Shown here piece after piece: positions 709 to 13,825 of a stretch of 64,000 nt of DNA. The first letter of the stretch is position 1. The number at the start of each line of letters is the position of its first letter. The position numbers and the translations under genes were made by a program. Below the pieces are notes generated by a model. It did not search any database and was not told the DNA's origin. It worked only from the letters and a program-made list of their open reading frames with translations. The stretch comes from an uncultured Clostridia bacterium (GTDB taxonomy: Bacteria > Bacillota > Clostridia > Oscillospirales > Butyricicoccaceae): positions 1 through 64,000 of the forward strand of contig CAMEZQ010000003.1 of NCBI GenBank assembly GCA_945947915.1, in the 5' to 3' direction.

Positions 709-1830
709 TCAAAGAGCTTTGGGAGCCGTGCGCTTATCGACGAGATAGAGATACTCGCTGAGATGGATGGAACGGCTGCGGAGATTGCGGGCGCCGCGGA
801 AGGTGTTGTAGGCCGTGTCGAATACCGTGACACTGCCCAGCTCGCCGAGCAGGCGGCGCATTTCCTGCGGGGAAATGAAGCCTTCGGAATTGAAGGAGAT
901 CAGCAGAAAGCGGGCCGGCAGGCGGGCGCAGAGCTCGCCCAGGGCCGCCTGGGCTTTTGCGGGGCTGTTGTAATCGGAACGGTTCCAGTCGCGCGGGATG
1001 CCGGATACCGGACTGATCCGGTCGGCCGGCGGTTCCCGGTAGGTGCAGAGCAGATTGAGCATAAAATAATTGGAACCGTAGGGATGCTGGTTGTAGGGCG
1101 GGTCGAGGTAGGCGACGTCGACCGGCTCCATCTGGCCGGCCAGCCGGAGCGCGTCCAGCCGGGTGACCGTAAAGGGGCAGGTGTAATTGCTGAACACGGG
1201 GAAGGGCAGCTCGATGGGGGCCAGAATGCGGGAGAGGGCGTTGGCCGCCCGGCCGCCCCAGGCGCCCCTGCCGGTGTGCGGGTCTTTGTAAAAACCCTTG
1301 AAGACCCCCGAGGTGTTGCATTTGACCGAAGCCTCAGACAGAAGCGGCGCCAGGAAATAGGGCTGCAGGTCGGCGGGCAGGCGGCCGATGGCCGTGCGGC
1401 AGGTATCGAGAAAAACGGCGTTTTCCGGCGTGTAGAAAACACGCTCGCCCTTTTGGATATTGCCGGCGTCCCGGGGGGCGTAAAGACGGCGGATGAAGCC
1501 GTCGGTCACCGGATGGGCGGCCATGTCGCGCAGCAGCGCCCGGTGGACTTCGGAAAGCCGCGTCCGGTCGGGGCTGGCCAGATAGCAGCGGGAAATGACG
1601 CTGCAGTAGAGCTCCAGATCGTTGGCCAGAATATGATCGGCCCATTGCTTGAAAAAGCGGGAAACGACACCCGAGCCGGAGAAAACGTCGGCAAAGGTCA
1701 GCCGTTCCCGGCCCAGGCGGGACTGGACCTCGCGGACGCCCCGGCCGATAAAGTCCAGCAGGGCGCGCTTGTTGCCCAGGTAGGTGATGAGCTGTCGGGT
1801 GAGATATGCTTCGTTTTCGGTGGTTTCCAT
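709..1830 (-). CDS. D12-class N6-adenine-specific DNA methyltransferase
   Basis: A 373-residue protein of the D12 (Dam-like) adenine methyltransferase class. The AdoMet-binding motif FADVFSGSG is at about residues 46-54 and the catalytic DPPY tetrad is at about 243-246, in the order typical of this class. It would transfer a methyl group from S-adenosylmethionine to N6 of adenine in a specific DNA sequence. No restriction endonuclease is seen beside it in the window, so it may be a solitary modification enzyme or its partner may be elsewhere. The ATG at 1830 has an AAAGGAAG ribosome binding site. The recognition sequence cannot be inferred. Confidence 0.9.
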   Translation of the reverse strand: METTENEAYLTRQLITYLGNKRALLDFIGRGVREVQSRLGRERLTFADVFSGSGVVSRFFKQWADHILANDLELYCSVISRCYLASPDRTRLSEVHRALLRDMAAHPVTDGFIRRLYAPRDAGNIQKGERVFYTPENAVFLDTCRTAIGRLPADLQPYFLAPLLSEASVKCNTSGVFKGFYKDPHTGRGAWGGRAANALSRILAPIELPFPVFSNYTCPFTVTRLDALRLAGQMEPVDVAYLDPPYNQHPYGSNYFMLNLLCTYREPPADRISPVSGIPRDWNRSDYNSPAKAQAALGELCARLPARFLLISFNSEGFISPQEMRRLLGELGSVTVFDTAYNTFRGARNLRSRSIHLSEYLYLVDKRTAPKAL

Positions 1831-1955: not shown

Positions 1956-2000
1956 GAAAAAACAGAAAAAGCCGCAGCGGCAGAGCCGTCACGGCTTTTT
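1956..2000 (-). terminator. Intrinsic terminator closing the glycine-riboswitch transcript
   Basis: On the minus strand the stem AAAAAGCCG / CGGCTTTTT (arms 1992-2000 and 1966-1974) is followed by CTGTTTTTTC. It ends any transcript that reads through the riboswitch terminator at 2095-2148, leaving about 90 bases of RNA without a supported ORF between the two terminators. Confidence 0.7.
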
Positions 2001-2094
2001 CAGGAAAAAGGAAAGAGAAGGTATTGGCAAGGATAAAGCCGCGGAATGCGGGGAGTGAAAAGCAGCTGCGGGTCCCGGGCGGACCAAAAAAGGA

Positions 2095-2148
2095 AATAAA
2101 AAAAGACAGAACGCAAAGCCGCAGAAAAAGATGGGCTTGCCTCTGTCC
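2095..2148 (-). terminator. Expression-platform terminator of the minus-strand glycine riboswitch
   Basis: On the minus strand GACAGAGGCAAGCC (2147-2134) can pair, with small bulges, with GGCTTTGCGTTCTGTC (2120-2105), followed by TTTTTTT. The 5' arm of this terminator contains the GGACAGAG strand that closes the second glycine aptamer. Glycine binding and termination are therefore mutually exclusive, which is the arrangement of an ON switch. Confidence 0.75.
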
Positions 2149-2308
2149 ATTAACCTGAAAGATTCCCTCTGTACGGCGCAAGCGCCGTAAAAAGTTGCCT
2201 CGTCGGTGCAGCGGGTGGCTGCTTTTCAGAGCGTCGTCGGAACACGGTCCTTTTGCCTGAGAGCTTTCGCAATTCCCCTTCGGCGTGCCTGCGCGGCCTC
2301 TCTCCCGT
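2139..2308 (-). ncRNA. Tandem glycine riboswitch without a recognisable target gene
   Basis: Read on the minus strand, the first aptamer has a GGGAGAG start, CCGAAGGGG, then GCTCTCAGGCAAAAGGACCG. The second has CTCTGAAAAG, ACCGACGAGGCAA, then AATCTTTCAGGTTAATGGACAGAG. These are the conserved blocks of the two glycine (gcvT-type) aptamers, joined by a short linker. A good promoter lies immediately upstream and a terminator overlaps the last helix. No gene for glycine transport or cleavage follows: the next supported gene on this strand is a DNA methyltransferase beyond a second terminator. Confidence 0.88.
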
Positions 2309-2348
2309 ATTCGTCATCCGACCTATGCTGTTGTCATTTACCGTGTTT

Positions 2349-2377
2349 ATCATAAACGATGAAAGAGCCTTTGTCAA
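2349..2377 (-). promoter_or_regulatory. Sigma-A promoter of the minus-strand glycine riboswitch
   Basis: TTGACA (2377-2372) and TATGAT (2354-2349) on the minus strand are separated by exactly 17 bases. Transcription would start about 40 bases before the first glycine aptamer. It is divergent from the mntP promoter at 2459-2488. Confidence 0.8.
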
Positions 2378-2493: not shown

Positions 2494-2618
2494 CCGGACA
2501 AGGGAGTAGTCGGCGCCGGCCTGCCGGCGCGGCAATATCGACAGACTAACGGGACGTGGGCGTTATGGCACGACCGTTCGGTATTGCACGGCATTGTGAA
2601 ACGACGAGACTTGACCGC
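2494..2618 (+). ncRNA. yybP-ykoY-type Mn2+ riboswitch upstream of mntP
   Basis: The 5' side reads CAAG-GGAGTA-GTCG (2499-2512) and the 3' side CGAC-GAGA-CTTG (2602-2613). The outer arms CAAG/CTTG and inner arms GTCG/CGAC pair around the GGAGTA and GAGA internal loops characteristic of the yybP-ykoY Mn2+ sensor, and the helical segment between them folds back. CTTG overlaps the foot of the terminator at 2611-2648, so Mn2+-stabilised pairing would favour read-through into the Mn2+ exporter gene. The class is inferred from motifs and from the downstream gene. Confidence 0.8.
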
Positions 2619-2648
2619 TTGCTTTTGCTGCGGTCAGGTCTTTTTTTA
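2611..2648 (+). terminator. Expression-platform terminator of the Mn2+ riboswitch
   Basis: Stem TGACCGC (2612-2618) / GCGGTCA (2630-2636) is followed by GGTC and a run of seven or more T. It sits between the aptamer and the mntP ribosome binding site. Confidence 0.8.
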
Positions 2649-2690
2649 CGCTCCCGGGAAATCAAATGAAGATATGAAAGAGGTAGTAAC

Positions 2691-3256: not shown

Positions 3257-4150
3257 GGGTTGGGAACTTCGCTGAAGCGGACGAATCTGGGTGCTGCGCC
3301 GCGCCTATGCCTCCCTTGTGCAAAGGGAGGTGAGTCCGAAGGACCCGGAGGGATTGTGCTTTTTCTGATTTTTCCTTCTCAACTTCACTTGTCCGCCTTG
3401 GCAAGTGCGCGTTTTTCTGTTACTTTCGACTGCCCGAAAGTAACCAAAGGGCACTGGGGGCGCTTTAAGCCGCCCCCCGGACCCCCAGGCGAGGGTGTAA
3501 AGGGTTGTGGTGAAGTCTGACGGAAGCGCGGAAGCCGCGACCGTGCGCCCGATTCCATTGATGCGTCCTCAGGTCGCTCATTGGGGCGCGGTTCCGTCTG
3601 ACATCAGCCGATAGAAAGCGGCCGGCGCGGCTCCGTGCGCCGTAAGCAAAAAAGAGCGACCCGTGACAGCGGCTTCGCCGCATCATCATCGGGTCGCCTA
3701 TAAAACGGCACCGCACCCATGCCTCCCTTGTGCAAAGGGAGGTGGGTCCGCAGGACCCGGAGGGATTGTGCTTTTCCTGCGCAACGCCACTTGTGCGCTT
3801 TGGCAAGCGCGCGTTTTTCTGTTACTTTCGACCGAGCGAAAGTAACCAAAGCTCGCCGGGGGTGCTTTAAGCCGCCCCCCCGGTCCCCCAGGCGAGGGTG
3901 TAAAGGGTTGTGGTGTGCTTTTCCAGACACATGGGGGCCGCGACCCAAGGCCCCGCTGATGCGGAACGGCTTCGGGTCGCTCACGCAGCCCGTCTGCCCC
4001 CGGAAGTTATGAAGGGCCTGTTTTTTTGCCTGGCTGCTTTATCATCAGGCCGGGAACTTCGCTGAAGCGGACGAATTTGAGTGCTGCACCGCACCCATGC
4101 CTCCCTTGTGCAAAGGGAGGTGGGTCCACAGGACCCGGAGGGATTGTTGG
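3257..4150. repeat. Array of composite intergenic repeats (about 2.5 periods)
   Basis: This non-coding stretch between mntP and selC holds repeated modules. Module E1 (CCTCCCTTGTGCAAAGGGAGG plus the GGACCCGGAGGGATTGTG tail) is at 3310-3358, 3722-3770 and 4100-4147. Module E2 (a GTTACTTTCG / CGAAAGTAAC hairpin, then a C-rich GCTTTAAGCCGCCCCC segment and CCAGGCGAGGGTGTAAAG) is at about 3407-3513 and 3808-3905. A joining module carries CGGGTCGCTCACGCAG and ACTTCGCTGAAGCGGACGAAT. The E1 copies are spaced by 412 and 378 bases. A further E2-joiner-E1 copy is at 35075-35530. Open frames through the repeats have no recognisable protein. Confidence 0.85.
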
Positions 4151-4582: not shown

Positions 4583-4639
4583 ATAGTCGTAAGCGAGCGC
4601 GTGTGTCTCGCTTGCCCAAAAATAAATATTTCAGGATGA

Positions 4640-4836
4640 AGCTTCCGGGAGAGCGCGGGACAGAGAACCCGCCGCCGAAGAGGCAAGGGCCTGCGGTGAG
4701 TCGCCGCAGGGCCGAAACTTTCAGGCAAAAGGACCGGATGCGGACTGTACTCTGAAGAGCTGTAAGCGAACTCATGCTTAAGCGCCAAAGGAGCAACGGC
4801 CTTAGGGCCGGAATCTCTCAGGCCAAAAAACGGAGA
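4640..4836 (+). ncRNA. Tandem glycine riboswitch controlling grd genes
   Basis: The first aptamer runs from TCCGGGAGAGCG through GCCGAAGAGGCAA to AACTTTCAGGCAAAAGGACCGG. The second runs from CTCTGAAGAG through GCGCCAAAGGAGCAA to AATCTCTCAGGCCAAAAAACGGAG. Two glycine aptamers in series ahead of grdX match the known use of this riboswitch to turn on glycine catabolism. No clear terminator is visible between 4836 and grdX, so the control mode is not decided. A second, target-less copy lies 2.3 kb away on the other strand. Confidence 0.92.
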
Positions 4837-4960
4837 AAAAGACGGTTGATTTACTTGTTTTTATTGTGATTTCAGTCGGGATTTCTTTAGAAGCACCGAG
4901 GCCGCTTATTTTTTTGACCCGGCGGCACGGACAGACTGAAATAAAGGCGGTAACAGGAAA

Positions 4961-13478: not shown

Positions 13479-13825
13479 GCGCTCGGGAAAGGGCGCAGAG
13501 GGTCTGCCTGCGGGCGGTCCCCGAAAAACGCGATGAATCCGGAGATTGCCGGCCTGGCCGGGTAACTTCGGAGGAGTAGTCCGACAATCGGGCGGCAGAG
13601 AAACCAAGACATACTTGCGTATCCATTTACAACCGGCGGAACTGCCTGCACTCGGCAGGTAAGCCACGGGGAGACCAACGAGTATTTATTTGCGCCGGCG
13701 CCCTATCATGCAGAGACCGGCTTTCATTATGCCGAAAACGTGATACACCCGGAAGCGTTGAAGTTTCTCGCCGTACCAAATCATCAAAGAAATGCGATTT
13801 GCGTACGCACAGGAGGAAAACAGCA
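13479..13825 (+). other. Long untranslated leader of the S10 operon
   Basis: About 345 bases separate the predicted start of transcription from rpsJ and contain no supported ORF. Several short GC-rich self-complementary segments are visible, for example ACTGCCTGCACTCGGCAGG near 13640. Such a leader could bind a ribosomal protein for autogenous control, but I recognise no known r-leader class. Confidence 0.4.

Follow-up and report, generated by a model that had tools for sequence, protein, structure and literature searches.

The stretch of DNA analysed here (the window; 64,000 nt, contig CAMEZQ010000003.1, genome G000) carries on its minus strand a predicted transcription unit made of a promoter, a tandem glycine riboswitch and two terminators. 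The sigma-70-type promoter TTGACA-17-TATGAT (2349..2377, 11/12 consensus matches) precedes aptamer 1 at 2235..2317 (Rfam RF00504, 58.6 bits, E 1.5e-9) and aptamer 2 at 2141..2231, a weak match of 36.5 bits; both lie above the curated RF00504 cut-off of 32 bits. The score against RF03166 (glycine-GGAnGA riboswitch) was 73.7 bits, under that family's curated cut-off of 110, and the unit is not assigned to it. The weaker aptamer 2 agrees with a survey in which aptamer 1 was the better conserved of the two in the gcv context (PMC6944388). Terminator 1, the expression platform, spans 2098..2148 with a hairpin at 2148-2105 and a run of seven U at 2104-2098. Beyond it lies a read-through RNA of about 141 nt (1957..2097, delimited by sequence and folding) that would be completed only when terminator 1 is bypassed; it contains the conserved single-stranded block ACCTTCTCTTTCCTTTTTC (2004..2022), the proposed seed, and ends in terminator 2 (1957..2001; hairpin 2001-1965 and U-tract to 1957), the predicted 3' end of the small RNA. 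Terminator 1 folds at -19.6 kcal/mol (z -3.3) and terminator 2 at -23.1 kcal/mol (z -6.3), and for each of them 0/200 shuffles fold as well. A sequence-only reading of this DNA had recognised the promoter, the tandem riboswitch, the overlapping terminator and the second terminator on this strand, all of which are present, together with a second tandem glycine riboswitch before grd, confirmed at 4636-4843 (+); its figure of about 90 extra bases of RNA is corrected by the length of the read-through segment given above.

Glycine riboswitches usually govern downstream glycine enzyme or transporter genes in cis, a typical context that is not part of their sequence definition. This context was not found here, there being no conserved same-strand gene and the unit being closed by terminator 2. 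The next same-strand gene, encoding a D12-class adenine DNA methyltransferase (709..1830, minus strand, Pfam PF02086), begins past terminator 2 and past a promoter-like sequence, TTGCTG-17-TATACT, recognised by eye in front of it, and is probably not part of the riboswitch unit. Its homologue lies behind the unit in G002, one of two further species of the same genus (G002 and G003), and no same-strand gene follows the unit in G003. The absence of a supported ORF between the terminators, as first proposed, also holds: just one ATG, inside aptamer 2, starts a frame of appreciable length, 53 codons in the window and 56 in G002, and because this frame stops after 5 codons in G003, no conserved protein is expected and a small protein from the read-through segment was rejected. 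A peptide encoded on the opposite strand across the block was likewise discarded by eye, the frames differing among the species.

Terminator 1 opens with eight bases, GGACAGAG (2148-2141, minus strand), that also form the 3' strand of the aptamer-2 P1 helix in the Rfam alignment, so that a ligand-stabilised P1 and terminator 1 are mutually exclusive. Judged from the sequence, this layout is that of an ON switch, and an equivalent arrangement of riboswitch and terminator precedes gcvT in the relatives G004, G005, G007 and G012. ON switches have been described elsewhere for gcv and grd glycine riboswitches (PMC11477304). For the window unit, the ligand, glycine, and the ON direction are both deduced from its Rfam family and its gcv-type relatives.

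Orphan units of the same kind occur in G002 and G003, that is, in 2/6 other species of the genus and in three species in all. When the three were aligned, the aptamers and the base of the terminator 1 stem were conserved, the upper stem differed in each species, and an unalignable spacer followed before an identical block; the read-through length was accordingly variable (141, 110 and 178 nt in G000, G002 and G003). Promoter-like hexamers stand at the matching position in G002 and G003, and terminator 2 was found in all three species. The block ACCTTCTCTTTCCTTTTTC, which directly precedes terminator 2, is 19/19 identical in the three species and is predicted to be 98-99% unpaired in each, versus 55-60% over the whole read-through segment. 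Fourfold-degenerate sites of the neighbouring mntP gene show only 38-50% pairwise identity among the same genomes, so that 19/19 identical positions in three species are very unlikely to have arisen by chance (2e-6, even when a per-site probability of 50% is allowed for three-way retention). The block is restricted to 3/87 family genomes, being missing from the other 84 even at 2 mismatches, and an exact scan of an 84,980-species genome collection, which may omit the window's own or near-identical records, gave as sole match the G003 contig CALWAP010000008.1 of an uncultured Clostridia bacterium. Riboswitch, terminator, block and terminator are thus kept in three species and in two downstream contexts, which supports the small-RNA unit suggested by the sequence-only reading; nor does the unit resemble an evolutionary fossil. 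Pyrimidine-rich sequence can, nevertheless, be constrained in other ways, for example by protein binding.

The origin of the unit was addressed with a FastTree phylogeny of 35 riboswitches, in which the three orphans form one clade (support 0.999) next to gcv-type riboswitches, with the grd and symporter types further off; support for the deeper branches is moderate (0.60-0.87). A gcv operon lies behind the related riboswitch in G004 and G005 of the same genus, and glycine decarboxylase (GDC-P) is absent from G000 and G002, so that descent of the orphan unit from a gcv leader appears likely on comparative sequence grounds. The G003 genome has a gcv operon elsewhere, yet also keeps the orphan unit. 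This operon (L060:4322-6300, minus strand) has a long upstream region with no riboswitch match, unlike its relatives, and a search for a hidden riboswitch upstream of it found none.

Glycine riboswitches were further surveyed in 87 family genomes, with inspection of about 40 downstream regions, where the usual contexts were gcv, grd and, by sequence inspection, symporter genes. A second orphan set was found in genus g15, in which three species (G020, G089 and G090) carry a tandem glycine riboswitch with a terminator, behind which come a conserved non-coding stretch of about 290-300 nt, a strong terminator and a convergent degV-like gene (L038:4679-5205, minus strand; L123:2650-3250, minus strand; L145:300-830, plus strand). 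The g15 RNA has stable hairpins along with a pair of invariant C/U motifs, CTAACCTCCCC and ATAACTCTCTTTCC, predicted to be 85-95% and 77-88% unpaired, respectively, versus a mean of 46-48%. In the tree, these orphans too fall among riboswitches of gcv type (clade support 0.985), and G090 has a riboswitch-controlled gcv operon (L122) beside its orphan unit. The only sequence shared by the RNAs of the two genera is the octamer CTCTTTCC, which does not establish common descent, and order-level matches to the g15 RNA were weak and chance-like on inspection. In genus g10, G070 (L141, minus strand) and G073 (L136:300-700, plus strand) have a symporter-type tandem riboswitch with two hairpins and then a convergent HAD-like gene behind it, possibly a third orphan class. 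By eye, the glycine riboswitches of genus g7 (L118, L142 and L147) precede genes resembling components of 2-hydroxyacyl-CoA dehydratase. In a published survey, every glycine riboswitch was paired with the closest gene on its strand within 500 nt (PMC6944388), and orphan glycine riboswitches could be missed in this way.

Putative targets were sought by pattern searches and with sequence stretches. The proposal of the sequence-only reading that the small RNA acts on grd or selC did not hold up, since pairing was no better than with shuffled sequence, and the adjacent mntP and grd start sites performed no better than shuffled seeds. An alanine/glycine symporter was dismissed as a target, the gene being absent from G000 and G003. 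Across G000, G002 and G003, complements of the core seed, G-U pairs included, showed no enrichment relative to the reversed control (27 vs 26, 20 vs 21 and 18 vs 31), and no orthologous Shine-Dalgarno site recurred among these three genomes. One pairing stood out, that with a gene for a YitT-like membrane protein (G000:C2:11123-11103, minus strand, locus L061), where 16 perfect base pairs place the block over the Shine-Dalgarno sequence and the duplex reaches -27.4 kcal/mol, where 67 start sites of the window average -10.4 (sd 4.4). The corresponding start sites give -16.1 kcal/mol in G002 and -12.4 kcal/mol in G003, and because the pairing is retained in neither, this site was rejected as a conserved target and is only a lead. 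For the g15 seed, a single complementary site, with 2 mismatches, was found in G020, where a surface-protein-like gene starts, and no such site was found in G089 or G090.

Given the parts of the unit, its competing helices, its conservation and predicted accessibility and the fact that it has neither a conserved ORF nor a constant gene behind it, all established from the sequence, it is probably a stand-alone glycine-inducible small-RNA gene whose product most likely pairs in trans with Shine-Dalgarno sites. Transcription from the promoter at 2377-2349 would produce the tandem aptamer; without glycine, GGACAGAG would pair into terminator 1 and leave a short leader RNA, and with glycine, the aptamer-2 P1 helix would hold GGACAGAG, block terminator 1 and let transcription reach terminator 2. 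The product, some 380 nt long and perhaps subject to processing, would expose in its 3' part the unpaired pyrimidine stretch ACCUUCUCUUUCC-UUUUUC right before the terminator hairpin. Because the stretch complements purine-rich Shine-Dalgarno sites, the RNA would most likely act in trans under abundant glycine, blocking the translation of certain mRNAs. Both the trans action and the base-pairing mode are suggested by these sequence features.

Riboswitch-controlled trans-acting RNAs are rare, the examples being SreA/SreB (PMC7266159) and EutX and Rli55 (PMC7602753). In EutX of Enterococcus faecalis and Rli55 of Listeria monocytogenes, a riboswitch and a terminator decide whether a non-coding RNA rather than an mRNA is completed, and the longer RNA acts in trans (PMC7602753), as is proposed for the window unit; the unit has the same kind of layout, with riboswitch and terminator before a gene-free non-coding segment that has its own terminator. 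The ligand of EutX and Rli55 is B12, which switches the RNA off, whereas glycine is predicted to switch the window RNA on, and EutX and Rli55 both contain a site bound by the ANTAR protein EutV, whereas the conserved feature of the window unit is a C/U single strand. The SAM riboswitches SreA/SreB of Listeria resemble the present proposal in that a riboswitch RNA acts on distant mRNAs (Loh et al. 2009, cited in PMC7266159). Among gene-regulatory riboswitches, the nearest in the tree is the gcv-type tandem glycine riboswitch (RF00504), which has the same aptamers and terminator logic; the window unit differs from it in having no gcv or other gene behind and in being ended by a second terminator. 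It differs from SreA/SreB, in which the regulator is reportedly the riboswitch leader of a normal gene, in its dedicated gene-free read-through segment. The Gram-positive small RNAs RoxS/RsaE and FsrA expose an unpaired C-rich motif that is the complement of Shine-Dalgarno sequences, and in Bacillus RoxS and FsrA pair with such sites (PMC10433868). Like them, the window unit has a C/U motif, predicted to be unpaired, followed by an intrinsic terminator, and its predicted accessible C/U-rich single strand, identical in three species, is of the RoxS/FsrA kind; unlike RoxS and FsrA, it begins at the 5' end with a metabolite aptamer that would control it, and the likeness is one of motif type, not a demonstrated sequence relation. 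No report of a glycine-riboswitch-controlled trans RNA was found in the open literature (subscription papers and preprints lay outside this coverage), nor, in the literature searched, was any riboswitch that senses an amino acid and controls a trans-acting RNA.

The most serious competitor, although an unlikely one, is that the glycine-induced RNA binds a protein, as a sponge of the EutX/Rli55 kind, with the C/U block as the protein site and no mRNA pairing. The best-known riboswitch-controlled trans RNAs do sequester protein (PMC7602753), a block that is unpaired and conserved to the letter would suit such a role, and the target searches yielded no conserved mRNA target; however, no known protein motif was recognised in the block, which resembles instead the C-rich Shine-Dalgarno-binding single strands of RoxS and FsrA (PMC10433868). 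A functional product consisting of the terminated riboswitch RNA itself, with the read-through part incidental, would have a precedent in SreA/SreB, riboswitch RNAs able to act in trans on distant mRNAs (Loh et al. 2009, as cited by PMC7266159), but it is very improbable for the window unit, as it leaves unexplained why the 19-nt block and terminator 2 are retained amid unconserved surroundings.

It is also improbable, if less so, that the unit is an evolutionary remnant, that is, the decaying leader of a lost gcv or transporter operon. The gcv-type affinity of the riboswitch, the missing GDC-P gene in G000 and G002 and the gcv genes behind the related riboswitch in G004 and G005 fit such a loss, and these last are one half of what the sequence-only reading had expected of relatives in that case; the other half, a decayed remnant at the window unit, was looked for and no trace of gcv was found. 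Moreover, promoter, aptamers, terminators and block persist in three species despite strongly diverged synonymous sites, G003 keeps gcv elsewhere, and G090 has a riboswitch-gcv operon plus an orphan. The loss of a transporter gene, which the sequence-only reading had offered as an option, is weakened by these gcv-keeping relatives with orphans, by the absence of a gcv remnant and by nearest riboswitches that are of gcv type, not transporter type. The small-RNA reading is therefore better than the gene-loss reading. There is, finally, a slight chance that the unit is a long leader of the DNA methyltransferase gene, read-through of terminator 2 giving glycine-dependent expression: the gene is the unit's same-strand neighbour in G000 and G002. 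Yet terminator 2 is a strong one (z -6.3), a promoter-like sequence intervenes before the gene, and G003 keeps the unit with no methyltransferase gene behind it.

Taking the small-RNA reading across both genera, it may tentatively be proposed, at somewhat less than even confidence, that glycine riboswitches have turned at least twice in one Clostridia family from leaders of glycine catabolism genes into sensors that head dedicated small regulatory RNAs with seeds complementary to Shine-Dalgarno sites, one metabolite sensor thereby controlling several mRNAs in trans. The interest of the unit rests on this two-genus recurrence and on the strictly conserved unpaired motif. If the proposal is true, a glycine-induced small RNA would let an amino-acid sensor govern scattered genes without a protein regulator, and the passage from cis riboswitch to trans regulator could be traced in several related genomes, in which gcv-linked and orphan versions occur next to each other.

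Other features were observed in the window. The mntP leader (2497-2690, plus strand) is about 160 nt long, includes a terminator-like hairpin and looks by eye like a manganese (yybP-ykoY) leader, and no yybP-ykoY match was found for it in Rfam up to E 5. Between mntP and selC, a repeat of the form CCTCCCTTGTGCAAAGGGAGGTG...GGACCCGGAGGGATTGT is present in three copies (3300-4150). An S10-Clostridia ribosomal protein leader was detected at 13525-13594 (plus strand), with a score of 36.9 bits, just above the cut-off.
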